DNA of 64,000 nt from a virus, in the IMG/VR virus record IMGVR_UViG_3300048997_000225, positions 62,001 to 126,000 of that record; one strand, written 5' to 3'. The notes below the pieces were generated by a model. It was not told the DNA's origin and made no database searches. It saw only the letters and a program-made list of their open reading frames with translations. Below, one piece after another: positions 42,836 through 64,000 of the stretch; within the stretch, counting starts at the first letter, position 1; each line of letters starts with the position of its first letter. Both the position numbers and the translations under genes were made by a program.

Positions 42836-43666
42836 TTAATAACTCATAACTACTTTATTGTTCCAAGTATCAAGCTCTTGTCGTAAGTTCTTATATAATT
42901 GTTCAGGATCATTTTCAGACAATCCTGACATAGAACCGTCATTAAGCTCAATAACTATCCAATCTCCAGAAGCGGTCTCGGCAACATCGATTACATAGAA
43001 ATTAATATTATCTTGGATTCTCCCAATCACCTCTGCTAGAAAATCAAGAGGGACAGATTCGGGATCAGGTGAGATATTAAGGTCATGAATTTCTTCAATA
43101 TGACTAGACCAATAATATCCACCACTCAAAATTTGAGAACGATAACAAAAAAATCTATATTCATTAGTTATCGGCAAACCTTGAATACCTATCATGTAAG
43201 TCTTGAGCGGAACGAATTCACGAATATAAATATGTTGATTGGAAATCAGGGAATCTGCGTATAAGCGAGATTCGACTTCAATAGCGTCTTTTTTGTTCTT
43301 GGCAAACATATGAGATTGCCAAAGCTGTTTCTTCGAATTAGTCTCGCCTTTAAGAACAAAAGATGTATTTTCAGGTAAATCTTGAGTACGAGACCAAGTT
43401 TTAGGAGTGAGATCAGATAAATCAGTCACCCAATTCTGCAAATCTGCAACATATAAATGTTGTTGATAACTATTTATTAACTTAGCCCCAACGAATTGAA
43501 CATCTGATTCAAGTTCGCGATAGAACGGAAGCGCACTATATCGCGGAATCACCAGCGAGTCCGGTTGGATTCGCATCCGAGTCCCGATGATTGGGAAATG
43601 ATGAGCAGCGGCAACTTGTTCTTGCTGCCAGTCTTGACCGTCTCGGAATAATATAATAGGCTCCAT
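42836..43666 (-). CDS. ATP-grasp domain protein, R2K clade, 276 aa
   Basis: The sequence follows the phage R2K ATP-grasp pattern: a Lys-bearing strand FVLKGETNSKKQLW (about residue 105), YIREFVPLKTYMIG with the conserved Arg, NEYRFFCYRSQILSGGYYW, and the metal/ATP motifs VIDVAETASGDWIVIELNDGSMSG near residue 235. ATP-grasp enzymes of this clade are thought to ligate amino acids or peptides to an acceptor, probably modifying a protein. The enzyme lies inside the tail assembly operon rather than among metabolic genes. The acceptor is unknown; modification of a tail or host protein is speculation. Confidence 0.75.
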   Translation of the reverse strand: MEPIILFRDGQDWQQEQVAAAHHFPIIGTRMRIQPDSLVIPRYSALPFYRELESDVQFVGAKLINSYQQHLYVADLQNWVTDLSDLTPKTWSRTQDLPENTSFVLKGETNSKKQLWQSHMFAKNKKDAIEVESRLYADSLISNQHIYIREFVPLKTYMIGIQGLPITNEYRFFCYRSQILSGGYYWSSHIEEIHDLNISPDPESVPLDFLAEVIGRIQDNINFYVIDVAETASGDWIVIELNDGSMSGLSENDPEQLYKNLRQELDTWNNKVVMSY

Positions 43667-43774
43667 CGATAAAAGACCTTACAAACCGGGGCAGGCGTAA
43701 AATCCTATATCGATGAATGGCCCGATTAAATAGTGTATCAGAGGGTTAACAATCAGTCATCATGAAATGGGAAT

Positions 43775-44281
43775 CTATATATCTACAGAATCAACATCTA
43801 CTGGATCTTTTCCAGAGGATATTTGAGAAGAATCGAAATCGTGAATAGCGCGTTCGACTGAAGACCAGTCACGATGTTGTAAACCCCCGATGCGAATCCG
43901 ATCTAAAGCGGCCTTTGCATTTTGACATTCAATTTTAATTAATTCCAAACGAATGTCTAATTCATGCAGCTCTCGAGAGCTTTTCCGGAGAGCTTGTCCA
44001 TTCAACTGGAGTTGAGATTGCAAAGTCTTAATAGATGAATTGGACTGCATTGTTTTTTCATAATATTGACCAGCTTTATCAGCTGCTTGAGTCAAATTTT
44101 GAAAACGAGTCTGCATAGCATCACCTAGACATGCAAGTCCAACAGTAATAGATCGTTGAAGATCTTGTCTATCAAGCTTCTCGGCTTGTAACTGTTTTAC
44201 TTGATCTTTCAAACGATTCCGTTCAGCAATAAGATCTGATACGTCCGTAGCATCATATTCTATTGAATCGGAATTTTCCAT
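43775..44281 (-). CDS. Coiled-coil protein, 168 aa
   Basis: Almost entirely helical, with heptad-like stretches (LIAERNRLKDQVKQLQAEKL, SRELHELDIRLELIKIE) and an acidic Ser/Asp-rich end. Its ATG overlaps the stop of the upstream endonuclease gene as TAATG, so translation may be coupled to it. It may be a structural or assembly factor of the tail. A gap of about 108 bases separates it from the next gene, in which no clear gene or strong terminator was seen. Confidence 0.6.
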   Translation of the reverse strand: MENSDSIEYDATDVSDLIAERNRLKDQVKQLQAEKLDRQDLQRSITVGLACLGDAMQTRFQNLTQAADKAGQYYEKTMQSNSSIKTLQSQLQLNGQALRKSSRELHELDIRLELIKIECQNAKAALDRIRIGGLQHRDWSSVERAIHDFDSSQISSGKDPVDVDSVDI

Positions 44282-45555
44282 TATTTAGATAATACAATCA
44301 CCCAACGTTTTTTGCCCAGATCCCAAATTTTATGGTATCCTTGCGCCGTCCGGAGTTCAGTTTCTGTAAACTCGGACAAACGTTCGATGCCGCGCTTGCG
44401 AAGTCCTGATTTATGGAATCGTCTATTATCTTTAACCCAAAAATAATCAGGAGCCACGTCTCCATCGAATTTGAAACCAATCTTCTCATAAACTGCTCCG
44501 GAAAACAGCCTGTTATCAGAAAATGACACAATTGATGAAGGTTGGAAATCTGCAATGAACTTTTGAATGAGTTTCGACCAAATCCCATGCACTCGATAGT
44601 CAGGATGCGATACCATCCGAAGAAGTTCCCAAGGATGTTTAGACTGGCGAGTCGGAATGGAAAAAGAGGCGCAAGCCATGAGTTGGTTCTCGAAAAACAC
44701 TCCGTAGTGAACTTTAGCTGTACAGGTTCCAATATAATGATGGGCGTTATAAAATCCGTCGCACTCTATTTTTGGAATTGGCCGAATTGTGCATTGCGAC
44801 GGGCGAAGGTTTCTCGGTTTAGAAATTATTAAACGATTCCGGAATAAATTCTCAATTTTAGAACGATTCCGGAGCCATTCATCTTCAAATATTGAAATAT
44901 GAGAACATCCAGCAGCAATAGCGGCTTTATATTTAATAAAATCTCGTTGTCTAGAACCAGGAAAATTATGCCACTTTAGTCCATTATATCCAATTAGTAG
45001 ATTATGAGAGGGAACAAACATATCATATTCCAAACCATTAACTAAATATTCTTGAACAACTTCAAGTCCGAGACTCCGAATAAATTCGACAATGGAAACA
45101 GAGGCCGAAGGAATCTTATCGGAAAGATGTTGAATGTTAGATTTTGTACGAATCTTTTTAATATGCCTGCTAGATTTCTGAAAGCATTTCCCACATGATG
45201 TAGTATGACCAGTTGTAACTGATAATGGCTGGCATTGAGTTTCATTCCCACAATCACAAAGCCATATCACTTTGGTTCGAGAACCCGGGAGCAAATCAAC
45301 AGGGGTCTTGATTCGGAGTTTCCCAAACTTCCTTGTTCGAAGCTCTTCAGCAGAAAGTTGATTACATTTCCGGCAGGAAGAAGTGTTTCCCCTTACAACT
45401 GTGCAGACAGATAAATTAGTTGTTTTTCCACAATCACAAATCCAGTCCACTTTCTGATGGGAGCCACTTGTGGAATCTTGTGGCTCCAACATTCGGAGCT
45501 TTCCATAGTTGGTTAATCGAAAATGGTCAGCTGATAAGAATGTGGATGAGTCCAT
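44281..45555 (-). CDS. Homing-endonuclease-like protein: two zinc ribbons, Vsr-like nuclease, GNAT-like C-terminus, 424 aa
   Basis: Two CDCG...C.KC zinc-ribbon motifs lie at residues about 36-60 and 95-122. A Vsr/EDxHD-like nuclease region follows (about 145-235: IRSLGLEVVQEYLVNGLEYDMFV, LIGYNGLKWH, FEDEWL). The last 170 residues resemble the Mom/GNAT-like module (HYIGT, GIWSKLIQKF, SFSDNRLFSGAVYEKIGF). The related plus-strand protein at 46432 has IEYNG where this one has IGYNG, so a likely active-site acidic residue is missing here. It sits inside the tail operon between tube and coiled-coil genes, as expected for an invading homing element. Confidence 0.75.
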   Translation of the reverse strand: MDSSTFLSADHFRLTNYGKLRMLEPQDSTSGSHQKVDWICDCGKTTNLSVCTVVRGNTSSCRKCNQLSAEELRTRKFGKLRIKTPVDLLPGSRTKVIWLCDCGNETQCQPLSVTTGHTTSCGKCFQKSSRHIKKIRTKSNIQHLSDKIPSASVSIVEFIRSLGLEVVQEYLVNGLEYDMFVPSHNLLIGYNGLKWHNFPGSRQRDFIKYKAAIAAGCSHISIFEDEWLRNRSKIENLFRNRLIISKPRNLRPSQCTIRPIPKIECDGFYNAHHYIGTCTAKVHYGVFFENQLMACASFSIPTRQSKHPWELLRMVSHPDYRVHGIWSKLIQKFIADFQPSSIVSFSDNRLFSGAVYEKIGFKFDGDVAPDYFWVKDNRRFHKSGLRKRGIERLSEFTETELRTAQGYHKIWDLGKKRWVIVLSK

Positions 45556-45650
45556 AAGTTTTGTATCTTACAATACAAAACTTAAATATCTACTAGTATT
45601 AATCCAAAATGATTTTAATATCTGACATTACAACGTTAGATTTATATATC

Positions 45651-45690
45651 TTATTTATCAGGAAGCCTTCGAAGGCTTCCTGATAAATAA
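45651..45690. terminator. Perfect 40-base palindrome between genes, possible terminator
   Basis: Halves 45651-45670 and 45671-45690 are exact reverse complements with no loop (centre GCCTTC/GAAGGC). It lies 12 bases after the stop of the minus-strand tube-like gene and about 95 bases before the start of the endonuclease gene. It can fold as a strong hairpin, but no run of T follows the stem on the minus strand beyond mixed A/T, so intrinsic termination is plausible rather than shown. Confidence 0.55.
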
Positions 45691-45702
45691 GCACGATCTT
45701 TG

Positions 45703-46374
45703 CTAACCAAAAAGACGCGATCCGCTGCCAGGCTTGAGCAATGGGTTGTTCCCAGAATCCAATTGAGAACCATAATTATCTGGGCTAGTACCATAAAAGC
45801 TACTACCATCAGTCACATCAGTACATGTTGCCGCTGCATCTTCCATGACTATAGCAGAATCACTTGGGAAGCTTACGCTAACAGAGTTTAGCCAACAAGC
45901 TTCGAAATATGTAATAAGTGCAAAATTAGGATCATCAGTTGCCAAAGTCTTGATTAAAATCGAAGCTTGATCACGCACCGTGACAAGTTCGGAAAACACT
46001 AATTCTGAACGCAAATCGAATGGCCAACGATGATGCCTGAGTGAACGAACTAGACCGTCCACGCCGCCCCGATAACCAACTTCTTGAACAATACCTGCTG
46101 TATATAGCAAAGTCCGGTTCAAAGTGATAGCCATGGGCTCTGTCACATTCGGGACAAGCTCTTGAATCTTATCGCCGAACCCAACGCCGCGGACTGGGTC
46201 TATTCCTCTACTTTCACTATAATCAAATGTCGAAAGCACTCCAATTTGTTTATCACTTGGTTGTTGGACCGTGAATGGACGAGAAAAAACGCGATTCTTC
46301 TGTGAAATCGCGACTCTAGTATTCGGTGAAGAACCACTTCTATAGATATACGAATCCGCTGCATCTCTAGACAT
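45703..46374 (-). CDS. Putative tail tube protein, 223 aa
   Basis: The middle carries FGDKIQELVPNVTEPMAITLNRTLLYT followed by a conserved-looking stretch with SLRHHRWPFDLRSELVFSE and then ITYFEACWLNSVSVSF and MEDAAATCTDV. This plan (short beta core with HH.WPFD and Y.E.CWL.S) matches tube proteins annotated in other large myovirus-like phages, and the gene lies at the head of the tail operon before the tape measure. Tube subunits stack as hexamers inside the sheath. The sheath gene itself is not in the window. Confidence 0.65.
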   Translation of the reverse strand: MSRDAADSYIYRSGSSPNTRVAISQKNRVFSRPFTVQQPSDKQIGVLSTFDYSESRGIDPVRGVGFGDKIQELVPNVTEPMAITLNRTLLYTAGIVQEVGYRGGVDGLVRSLRHHRWPFDLRSELVFSELVTVRDQASILIKTLATDDPNFALITYFEACWLNSVSVSFPSDSAIVMEDAAATCTDVTDGSSFYGTSPDNYGSQLDSGNNPLLKPGSGSRLFG

Positions 46375-46392
46375 TTGAATCTCCTATTACTG

Positions 46393-46420
46393 TTGTAAAT
46401 TGAAGATCCAACAATATAGT
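46393..46420 (+). promoter_or_regulatory. Candidate promoter for the plus-strand endonuclease gene
   Basis: TTGTAA (46393-46398), a 16-base spacer and TATAGT (46415-46420). The start codon at 46432 follows so closely that the transcript would have almost no leader, and no ribosome binding site is visible. Weak match at -35. Confidence 0.35.
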
Positions 46421-46431
46421 TATATACAATT

Positions 46432-48384
46432 ATGATCCAATTGGCCCCAAATCAAAATATTCCAGAACATCTTCATACTAAGAAAAAATTCCAATTCATA
46501 TGTGATTGTGGGAATATATTTTGGACGTTATGGGCAAGTTTTAAAACTGGTCAAGCAAAAACTTGTGGAAAATGCAAAATATTTAAATGGAAACAATCCG
46601 GACGAATCCGATTCGGAAAATTAGAATTAATTGATCCAATTAATGATATTAAACGATTGACCGACAAACATCATTGGAAATGTGATTGTGGAAATCAAAA
46701 ACTAATTCAAGTGATAAACGTCTTAAATGGAGATACGAATAGTTGTGGCTGTATATGTAAACAATCAATACGTGGTTTACAACCATATCATCCAGTCAAA
46801 TCAAAAATCATATGGCTACAAGAATTATCAGAATTAATAGATAGAGGATTACCAGATAACTGGAGTACTGGTGCTAATCTAAAAGCCAGTTTTCGATGTG
46901 CTTGTGGTAACGAATATATCAGAAAATTTTCAAAATATGATTCAGTCAAATCAACATGCGGAAGATGCAATGAAATATCAATAATACGAGGACATCAAAT
47001 CAATCAATTCACATATGATGATGAATCTGGAATAATAAACACTAAATCAACAGTTCAAAAATATTTCATATGTAAATGCGGTAAACGCACATTATTGAAC
47101 ATCCGAGATATATTTTCCGGAAATAAAAAAATATGTAGTAAATGCAATGAAATAACAGCACAAGAAATAGCCAACAAGAGATTCGGAAAACTTATTATCA
47201 AATATCCGGAAAATATTAAACGTTATTCCGGAAAAAAGATATGGTGGAATTGTGAATGTGGAGGAGAAATATATACGGGCATATATAGTGTGTTATCTGG
47301 AAAAACTAAAACTTGTGGGAAATGCCGACAACCAATCCAAAATTGGTATATTCAAAATCGTGAAGAAATACGAGCATTAAAATGCCCTATCCCAGCTGGA
47401 ATCATTTTAAATGGAATACAAGCATTAGAAATTATCAATACAGTATCTGATCCATTTAAAGCTTTATGTCCGGTATGTGATAATATTTACTTTCCACGAT
47501 TACATGGTATTAAAGATGGTGAGTCAATTACCTGTGGATGCACATCTAATTTATTAATTTCAACCGCTCAGAAAGAAATTGCGGAATTCATACAGAATTT
47601 AGGAATAAATGTAATACTGGAATATCCAATCAATGGACTACGATATGATATCTGGGTAGCAGCTTCAAAATTGGTTATTGAATATAATGGACTATTATGG
47701 CATAGTAATATTGACGCGCGTAGAAGAGAATTAATTAAATGGCAGAATGCGATAAATGAAGGTATGCACTGTTTAACAGTATATGAAGATGAATGGAAAT
47801 ATAAAAGGAAATGCATTGAAAATATTATCAAAAATAAATTACAGATTGTCAGTCCAAAACGAACGATTTTAAGACCGAAGTCATGTGAAATACAACAATT
47901 AGAATCAAAAATCGTCAATAAATTATATGAAACATATCATTATATTGGAGGAACTGCATCGAAGGTAAATTATGGTATATTCTATCAAGAACAATTGATT
48001 GCTTGTATTTCTTTCAAAAGGCCGACCAGACAATCAAAATATGATTGGGAACTTGCCAGAATGGTCGCCCATCCAGATTTCCGTGTTCATGGTATTTGGA
48101 GCAAACTCCTCCGGAAATTCATAAAAGAATATTCTCCAAAATCGATTGTTTCGTTTTCAGATAATCGATTATTCTTTGGTGGAGTTTATGAAAAACTCGG
48201 CTTCCAATATGACGGTGATGTAAATTCTGATTATTATTGGACAAAAGGTAAACGAAGATATCACAAATCGTCTCTGCGCAAAAAACCTGGAGAAATCGGA
48301 ACAGAATTTGAGCTCCGGACAGCTCAAGGTTATAGACAAATTTGGGATCTGGGCAAAAAACGTTGGGTGCTCCATGTCAAGTGA
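46432..48384 (+). CDS. Homing-endonuclease-like protein with six zinc ribbons, Vsr-like nuclease and GNAT-like C-terminus, 650 aa
   Basis: Six C.CG...C-x2-C-type ribbons occur at about residues 24, 84, 156, 213, 273 and 345, each with intervening RFGKL/KYPENI-type linkers. The nuclease part (about 380-455) has LEYPINGLRYDIWV, VIEYNGLLWHS and YEDEW. The C-terminal module (from about residue 495, HYIGGTASKVNYG, GIWSKLLRKF, SFSDNRLFFGGVYEKLGF) is nearly the same as in the minus-strand 424-residue protein. The ribbons probably read DNA and the Vsr-like fold cuts it. It is transcribed opposite to the tail operon, directly next to the tube gene, and is much more AT-rich than the two genes that follow. 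Confidence 0.78.
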   Translation: MIQLAPNQNIPEHLHTKKKFQFICDCGNIFWTLWASFKTGQAKTCGKCKIFKWKQSGRIRFGKLELIDPINDIKRLTDKHHWKCDCGNQKLIQVINVLNGDTNSCGCICKQSIRGLQPYHPVKSKIIWLQELSELIDRGLPDNWSTGANLKASFRCACGNEYIRKFSKYDSVKSTCGRCNEISIIRGHQINQFTYDDESGIINTKSTVQKYFICKCGKRTLLNIRDIFSGNKKICSKCNEITAQEIANKRFGKLIIKYPENIKRYSGKKIWWNCECGGEIYTGIYSVLSGKTKTCGKCRQPIQNWYIQNREEIRALKCPIPAGIILNGIQALEIINTVSDPFKALCPVCDNIYFPRLHGIKDGESITCGCTSNLLISTAQKEIAEFIQNLGINVILEYPINGLRYDIWVAASKLVIEYNGLLWHSNIDARRRELIKWQNAINEGMHCLTVYEDEWKYKRKCIENIIKNKLQIVSPKRTILRPKSCEIQQLESKIVNKLYETYHYIGGTASKVNYGIFYQEQLIACISFKRPTRQSKYDWELARMVAHPDFRVHGIWSKLLRKFIKEYSPKSIVSFSDNRLFFGGVYEKLGFQYDGDVNSDYYWTKGKRRYHKSSLRKKPGEIGTEFELRTAQGYRQIWDLGKKRWVLHVK

Positions 48385-48682
48385 TTATATTGCTAAGCGC
48401 CAACAATCACGACGCATGAACGTTGTCCGACGCCGGTTTTTTGCTCGGGAACTCATCATTCAGCTCAAATCGCAACCTTGTGCGGATTGTAAGCTCCCTT
48501 ACCATCATTGCCAAATGGACTTCTGGCATAAGCAACAAAACGGCGTCCCATTGGCCAGGTTGCTTCTGAAATCCAAAGACCGGATCATTTTAGAAGTCCA
48601 AAAATGCGATTTGCTATGTGCCAACTGCAGTCGGCTGCGCACTTGGAAATTCGAACGCCAGCAACGCTCGAGCGACACTTAA
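48374..48682 (+). CDS. HNH-endonuclease-like protein with altered metal motif, 102 aa
   Basis: The pattern CADCKLPYHHCQMDFWHKQQNG ... EVQKCDLLCANCSRLRTW is that of the small phage HNH family (C..C, DF.H, then C.NCHR.RT). The last His of NCHR is Ser here, so catalytic or zinc-site function may be changed. ATG at 48374 overlaps the end of the endonuclease gene. The codons are GC-richer than those of the preceding gene, suggesting separate origin. Confidence 0.65.
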   Translation: MSSDYIAKRQQSRRMNVVRRRFFARELIIQLKSQPCADCKLPYHHCQMDFWHKQQNGVPLARLLLKSKDRIILEVQKCDLLCANCSRLRTWKFERQQRSSDT

Positions 48683-61525: not shown

Positions 61526-62119
61526 ATGACAATCGCATCACAAGCATTCGGTTCCATATTCAATCAGGCCATAGGGTCTGGTATTGCAGGGTTCACCGGT
61601 CCACGTGGAAACACCGGGCCTCAAGGTGCGACCGGTCCTTTTGGTGGTCCAACTGGGCCTCAAGGTGCGACCGGTCCTGTCGGGAACACGGGTCCTATTG
61701 GAACGACCGGTCCACGTGGGAACACGGGTCCTGTCGGAACCGTTGGTCCAACAGGTCCTCAAGGCGTACAAGGTGTTACTGGAGCTCTTGGACCGAGTCA
61801 GAAATATACTTATCCCAGCCCGGCCACACCGCGAGTGGGAAGTTATATGGCATCGGTCTTCGAGCGAGTCATTTACGATCCGTCGTCTGGCCCATTCACT
61901 GTTTACGCTCCAACAGGTTCAAGCGTCGGAGACCAATTCGGAGTAAAGAATGTATCCTCTTCCACTGGCCCAATCCAGGTGAATGGTGGAGGCCGCGGAA
62001 TTGAAAATCCGGCCGTCAGTTACACATTGGCGAATGTGATCACAATGGTCGGGGCAGCATTAGGTGTTACTTGGGAACGCGGTTCAACAGGCTGGAATGC
62101 TGTGGCGAGGACTCCATGA
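61526..62119 (+). CDS. Short collagen-like fibre protein, 197 aa
   Basis: After 23 residues there is a Gly-X-Y run of about 70 residues ([20 protein letters not shown] ...), then a C-terminal beta tip with [13 protein letters not shown] that resembles the tip of the 972-residue fibre ([14 protein letters not shown]). Its stop overlaps the start of the next gene (ATGA). It forms a plus-strand cassette separate from the main tail operon, with a possible chaperone or tip gene behind it. Confidence 0.8.
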
Positions 62120-63635: not shown

Positions 63636-64000
63636 TTACACTTCAATCACCCACATAGTTTTTGGTTCTTCTTTTACATGCGCCAAACCAGCTTGAATCG
63701 CGAATTCAGTTTCATTCATATGATTGGATCGAGCCATATCCCATACTGTCTTCTTATGAATTGGTCGATTAGTTTGAGGATCTAAATAATGATATGATGG
63801 CAGTGTATTTGATAATTGCTTCCATTTAGATACTTCATAGATAGTCCCGTGATCATCCACGGAAGTGTCTGAAAAACTCAGTATAGCACGAATTCCTGGA
63901 TTGTCTTGAATATATGTAACTATGGAATGTTCTAAACAATGACTGGCCAAATTGAATGATTTGATATTCGGTCTAATACAAAATCGTCTAAGTTCTCGAA
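63636..64000 (-). CDS. Mom/GNAT-like protein, partial (N-terminus outside window)
   Basis: The frame is open to the right edge and reads ELRRFCIRPNIKSFNLASHC at the visible N-terminal side, then ILSFSDTSVDDHGTIYEVSKW and PSYHYLDPQTNRPIHKKTVWD. This follows the pattern of phage Mom-like GNAT-fold modification proteins and shares the SFSD and Y.Y.D features with the C-terminal parts of the two zinc-ribbon endonucleases of this window. A TTG-led short version would start at 63950, but the coding-like sequence continues. It may modify DNA bases or another acceptor; unproven. Confidence 0.65.
   Translation of the reverse strand, partial: RELRRFCIRPNIKSFNLASHCLEHSIVTYIQDNPGIRAILSFSDTSVDDHGTIYEVSKWKQLSNTLPSYHYLDPQTNRPIHKKTVWDMARSNHMNETEFAIQAGLAHVKEEPKTMWVIEV

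Follow-up and report, generated by a model that had tools for sequence, protein, structure and literature searches.

Two related endonuclease genes on opposite strands, here called ENDO1 and ENDO2, stand on either side of a tail-tube-like gene in the DNA of the virus record IMGVR_UViG_3300048997_000225 (IMG/VR). The window analyzed here, to which all coordinates refer unless another record is named, is the whole 64,000-nucleotide stretch from positions 62,001 to 126,000 of that record. The three genes and the domains predicted in their products are as follows.

44281..45555, minus strand: ENDO1, 424 amino acids (aa), a Hef-type endonuclease with 2 zinc ribbons, an EDxHD nuclease and a Mom-like GNAT domain
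45184..45438, minus strand: ENDO1 zinc ribbons 1-2 (aa 40-124), assigned by cysteine pattern
44815..45108, minus strand: ENDO1 EDxHD nuclease domain, with E169, D178, H196 and D205 kept and G at the E189 position
44284..44790, minus strand: ENDO1 Mom-like GNAT tail, with the Mom-aligned residues listed below kept
45703..46374, minus strand: tail-tube-like virion protein gene, 223 aa, between ENDO1 and ENDO2
46432..48384, plus strand: ENDO2, 650 aa, a Hef-type endonuclease with 6 zinc ribbons, an EDxHD nuclease and a Mom-like GNAT domain
46501..47541, plus strand: ENDO2 zinc-ribbon array (aa 24-370)
47563..47856, plus strand: ENDO2 EDxHD nuclease domain (aa 378-475), with E397, D406, E417 and H424 kept and E at the D433 position
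47881..48381, plus strand: ENDO2 Mom-like GNAT tail

An earlier note, made from the letters of the window, had described these genes as a related pair with two and six ribbons and parallel nuclease and C-terminal parts, and both points were borne out. ENDO1 and ENDO2 are 42% identical by BLASTP (353 bits, E = 1e-120), a likeness that, at the level of sequence, is unambiguously beyond chance and marks them as paralogues; their nuclease and C-terminal parts can be aligned over the full extent, and the ribbon count by regular expression is 2 for ENDO1 and 6 for ENDO2, at a spacing of about 60 aa. In both proteins Pfam recognizes DUF4379 ribbons, an MTES_1575 restriction endonuclease (REase) domain and Acetyltransf_1, with Mom below the cut-off, and PHROG assigns them to the homing-endonuclease families 559/3339 (E 1e-56 to 6e-76).

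The Vsr-like, EDxHD character that the earlier note gave to the nuclease part agrees with two comparisons. A profile of this domain built from 30 relatives matches the EDxHD enzyme I-Bth0305I (PDB 3r3p) with E = 5e-7, and the AlphaFold2 model of ENDO2 (predicted local distance difference test, pLDDT, 88.7) matches the same structure with a template-modelling (TM) score of 0.73 by target length. The similarity to the Vsr family itself, as seen with the phage enzyme Hef60, is weak and below the cut-off (E = 0.0018). The nuclease domain is common to both systems by profile and fold, whereas 3r3p is a solved catalytic domain without GNAT tail or ribbon array. I-Bth0305I is reportedly intron-associated, in line with its PDB name 'mobile intron protein'. 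We take its EDxHD motif to apply to ENDO1 and ENDO2, the residues being assigned from family conservation and not from a solved complex. All four motif residues E, D, H and D are kept in ENDO1 (4/4), where the G sits at a separate conserved E, and ENDO2 looks intact from its sequence apart from D433E.

Hef58-60 of Campylobacter phage NCTC12673 likewise combine zinc-ribbon repeats, an EDxHD-type nuclease and a GNAT tail in a single chain, and they match ENDO1 and ENDO2 along the whole chain (E 2e-31 to 2e-39). Like the ENDO family, they occur as several divergent copies per genome, and they adjoin a structural gene (the gp18 sheath). They differ in genome context, in their modest identity (about 25-32% over long BLASTP segments), and in having HL, versus HY in ENDO1 and ENDO2, at the position of Mom H58-Y59. 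In Dickeya phage LIMEstone1, the Hef-type gene F-LimVIII is transcribed divergently from the tail-tube gene (PMC3296691). This is the same layout as that of ENDO2, and the nuclease and tail of F-LimVIII are homologous to those studied here (E = 5e-18), whereas its N-terminal part is a DUF7487-type region in place of the ribbon array. A review credits hef of the T4-type phage U5 with cleavage of nrdB (PMC2988022); the likeness reported here was measured on Hef58-60 and F-LimVIII, not on U5 Hef. The earlier note had called a C-terminal GNAT part unusual for a homing enzyme, but in Hef-type enzymes of other phages it is standard; in ENDO1 and ENDO2 it is specifically Mom-like.

The two slots beside the tube-like gene were surveyed in about 14 syntenic genomes recovered through relatives of that gene, all of them metagenomic contigs and often partial. 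Downstream of the tube gene, a ribbon-EDxHD-GNAT gene is present in the window, L009, L012 and L100, and a GIY-YIG gene in L006, L011 and L100. In L005 the slot holds an unrelated 112-aa open reading frame (ORF) and no endonuclease, and in L104 a decayed endonuclease remnant. It is empty in L007, L008/L010, L013, L014, L050, L102 and L058, with only a short spacer, usually with a hairpin, between the tube gene and the next gene. The upstream slot, between the tube gene and a small HNH gene, contains a 6-ribbon enzyme in the window, L006, L014, L102 and L104 (in L104 the regular expression finds five ribbons, as one misses the pattern), HNH-Mom fusions in L012 and L013, and the small HNH gene alone in L005, L007, L008/L010 and L050.

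Some slots have composite contents. Three tandem homing genes occupy the downstream slot of L100 (1524-5029), namely a GIY-YIG gene, a ribbon-EDxHD gene without GNAT and a one-ribbon ENDO gene. The upstream slot of L009 (6037-7800) encodes a triple fusion, with two HNH domains, an EDxHD nuclease and a GNAT tail in one protein of 587 aa. In the decayed remnants L104:2056-2573 and L118:3971-4312, early ribbons are joined to the C-terminal tail or closely precede it.

This turnover, with empty sites, GIY-YIG and HNH swaps, remnants and tandem stacks, is the behaviour expected of homing genes, a reading that is well supported by the gene contents compared. It supports the homing at a tail gene proposed in the earlier note, as empty sites and replacements occur at both positions. 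A similar arrangement is known from homing endonuclease gene (HEG) islands, in which interchangeable homing genes bracket essential structural genes (PMC10448857); interchangeable homing genes surround a structural gene in both cases, though the islands are described mainly for T5orf172 and IPA-HNH families. In a C-terminal tree the 31 members form a star-like pattern that resolves the slot lineages poorly, and a scan of viral contigs with the single ENDO2 protein gave no matches, the family being recovered only with an alignment query.

Very probably, then, ENDO1 and ENDO2 are free-standing Hef-type homing endonuclease genes that, in a lineage of jumbo phages, came to flank a conserved tail-tube gene. 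Several points weigh against this interpretation. Divergence between filled and empty relatives is too great for the exact junction to be fixed, and the identity of the tube gene depends on a low-confidence model. Further, ENDO1 has G189 where the other 30/31 aligned homologues have E, and ENDO2 has E433 at a position usually occupied by D; judging from these substitutions, either enzyme could be inactive.

The tube label of the earlier note stands in part. The 223-aa gene (45703-46374) has no Pfam, PHROG or PDB sequence match. Its structural model is of low confidence (pLDDT 55), and the structures it matches are mostly tail-tube and Hcp proteins; it is the consistency with which tube proteins appear among these fold matches that gives them weight. 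The model thus makes tail-tube-like a reasonable but not proven description.

The zinc-ribbon arrays vary in number and by site. The same pattern, applied to 33 loci, detects as many as 7 ribbons, repeating about every 60 aa. The arrays are more alike within a slot than between slots (normalised BLAST score 0.44 versus 0.29, label permutation p = 0.0002), while the nuclease and tail are barely so (0.557 versus 0.541, p = 0.04), as would be expected if the array reads the site; the comparison concerns array similarity and does not measure recognition length. That ribbon number changes, as the earlier note had suggested, is seen at the ENDO1 site itself, where the orthologues in L009 and L012 have five ribbons and ENDO1 retains the first two only, being 174 aa shorter across that stretch. 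Since these intact same-site orthologues have five, ENDO1 has probably lost three ribbons. The view of ENDO1 as merely a short variant was dropped for the same reason.

The chances are even that ENDO1, at least, is decaying and no longer mobile. The 174-aa deficit and E189G would be expected of such a gene, and similar relics occur in L104, L100 and L118, but the coding sequence is uninterrupted and the motif residues E, D, H and D are retained. Another copy was found at a contig end outside the window (G000:C1 132377-132503), which shares its first 127 nt exactly with ENDO1 nt 969-1095 before diverging. This identity probably reflects an assembly-graph fork or a recent gene conversion. As 127 nt is a typical assembler k-mer overlap, ENDO1 probably lies at such a fork in the assembly, and its precise sequence needs confirming.

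The C-terminal tail is connected to Mom by several comparisons. With the ENDO2 model as query, the first match in PDB is Mom of phage Mu, a GNAT enzyme that modifies DNA (8bv8, E = 4e-7), with an E-value about 200-fold better than that of the next GNAT protein. The Pfam Mom profile scores 23.3 and 24.2 in hmmscan, versus a gathering threshold of 27.1, and ENDO1 with neighbouring pieces reaches 28.3 in a genome profile search. In direct profile comparison the ENDO tail has no significant match to Mu Mom (probability 0.6); its match is to HNH-Mom fusion proteins (probability 96.6, E = 5e-10). A second profile match connects those fusions to Mu Mom (probability 95.0, E = 4e-8). The link therefore relies on the bridging HNH-Mom fusions together with the fold search. 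ENDO1, ENDO2 and almost all homologues retain the residues aligned with H58, Y59, E108, R111, S124, D149 and Y159 of Mom; of these, we take R111, D149 and Y159 to be essential, along with S124. S124A is the inactive Mom mutant in the title of 8bv8. On the basis of the model and the profiles, the tail is assigned to the Mom clade of GNAT proteins. It keeps the Mom residues examined, and action on DNA, or binding to it, is probably still its role.

Mu Mom is a free-standing 241-aa enzyme, whereas the ENDO tail is a fused part. In six related genomes, all Mom-profile matches (18/18) sit in open frames of 428-627 aa and none stands alone; these frames carry HNH or EDxHD-type nuclease or ribbon parts and several kinds of N-terminal array, although their nuclease parts were not each scanned individually. 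For instance, the EDxHD-Mom proteins of L155, L159, L164 and L166-L168 have an N-terminal array of 'W..PEYR..QS' repeats in place of the zinc ribbons. Near the end of the window, positions 63636-63950 encode a portion of another ribbon and Mom fusion protein of 571 aa, which continues past the window end.

The same domain pairing has been described in jumbo phages, where REase-fused Mom domains are interpreted as restriction-modification systems and the word 'homing' is absent from the paper (PMC7824862). Applied here, the Mom domain would mark the phage genome and the nuclease would destroy unmarked DNA of the host or of a rival, and the conserved Mom residues examined above are compatible with this. 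However, patchy presence next to a single structural gene, with GIY-YIG and HNH homing genes as replacements, and the relics and stacks are what homing predicts and a genome-wide restriction-modification system does not. The same holds for the multiple divergent copies within a genome and for ribbon arrays that go with their insertion site. The clade genomes G001, G003 and G008, which have no family or Mom match, also speak against such a system, though these records may be fragments. We consider the restriction-modification explanation improbable for these genes.

If ENDO1 and ENDO2 are homing endonucleases, the N-terminal zinc-ribbon array would read the tube-gene border, the EDxHD nuclease would cut the ENDO-lacking allele of a co-infecting relative, and recombinational repair would copy the homing gene plus flanks. 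One possible role of the Mom-like tail would be to mark the carrier's own target. This scheme starts from the family, the domains, the insertion/empty-site polymorphism and turnover, the site-specific ribbon arrays and the Mom relationship; from these we infer that the enzymes cleave, where they cut, that the ribbons read DNA and what the tail does. In its full form it would make Hef-type enzymes a single-protein, self-protecting homing device, in which the array reads the site, the nuclease cuts the unmodified allele and the Mom-type tail marks the carrier copy. Both EDxHD and HNH nucleases carry a Mom-type tail in these phages. The combined reading is attractive, but we regard such a device as unlikely. 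Alternatively, the tail may no longer be an enzyme and may serve an ordinary homing endonuclease as an extra DNA-contacting domain, to which we give slightly less than an even chance. The same genome encodes a relative with ribbons and nuclease but no GNAT tail (G000:37951-39291), so the tail is dispensable and not obligatory, and Hef58-60 and F-LimVIII have L or I where Mom has Y59. Against a purely structural role, almost all homologues retain the residues at the positions of E108, R111, S124, D149 and Y159, and the tail has 37 invariant columns (29 homologues), versus 6 in the nuclease domain (30 homologues).

Three further features adjoin the pair.

45556..45702, minus strand: intergenic region between the tube gene and ENDO1, with a 19-bp-stem hairpin and a 12-bp-stem hairpin touching the ENDO1 start codon (z = -8)
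48374..48682, plus strand: small HNH endonuclease gene directly 3' of ENDO2, with an 11 bp overlap with the ENDO2 stop
42836..44281, minus strand: two extra genes (a 168-aa ORF and an R2K ATP-grasp gene), separating ENDO1 from the gene that, in relatives, comes next after the tube gene

The 12-bp-stem hairpin could limit ENDO1 translation; a promoter and terminator scan found no excess. The small HNH gene is an almost constant neighbour in relatives and overlaps the ENDO2 stop, so the element reaches beyond the end of ENDO2, at which the earlier note had closed it. The 168-aa ORF and the R2K ATP-grasp gene are possibly cargo or an independent insertion. Relatives of the R2K ATP-grasp ligase gene (42836-43666), which adjoins ENDO1, are located elsewhere in the records G007 and G010.

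The Hef type and the Mom-nuclease fusions of jumbo phages were already known from published work, and the main addition made here is the Mom-like identity of the tail. A literature search found no link between Mom and homing, which does not show that none exists. Homing endonucleases annotated as Hef and Mom-nuclease fusions read as phage restriction-modification are apparently the same kind of gene, so that two literatures are joined, and for the ENDO-type fusions studied the distribution favours homing. Finally, enzymes with 2 to 7 ribbons, each at a defined site, form a natural series in these phages: the DNA-reading part varies by site and the catalytic parts stay constant.

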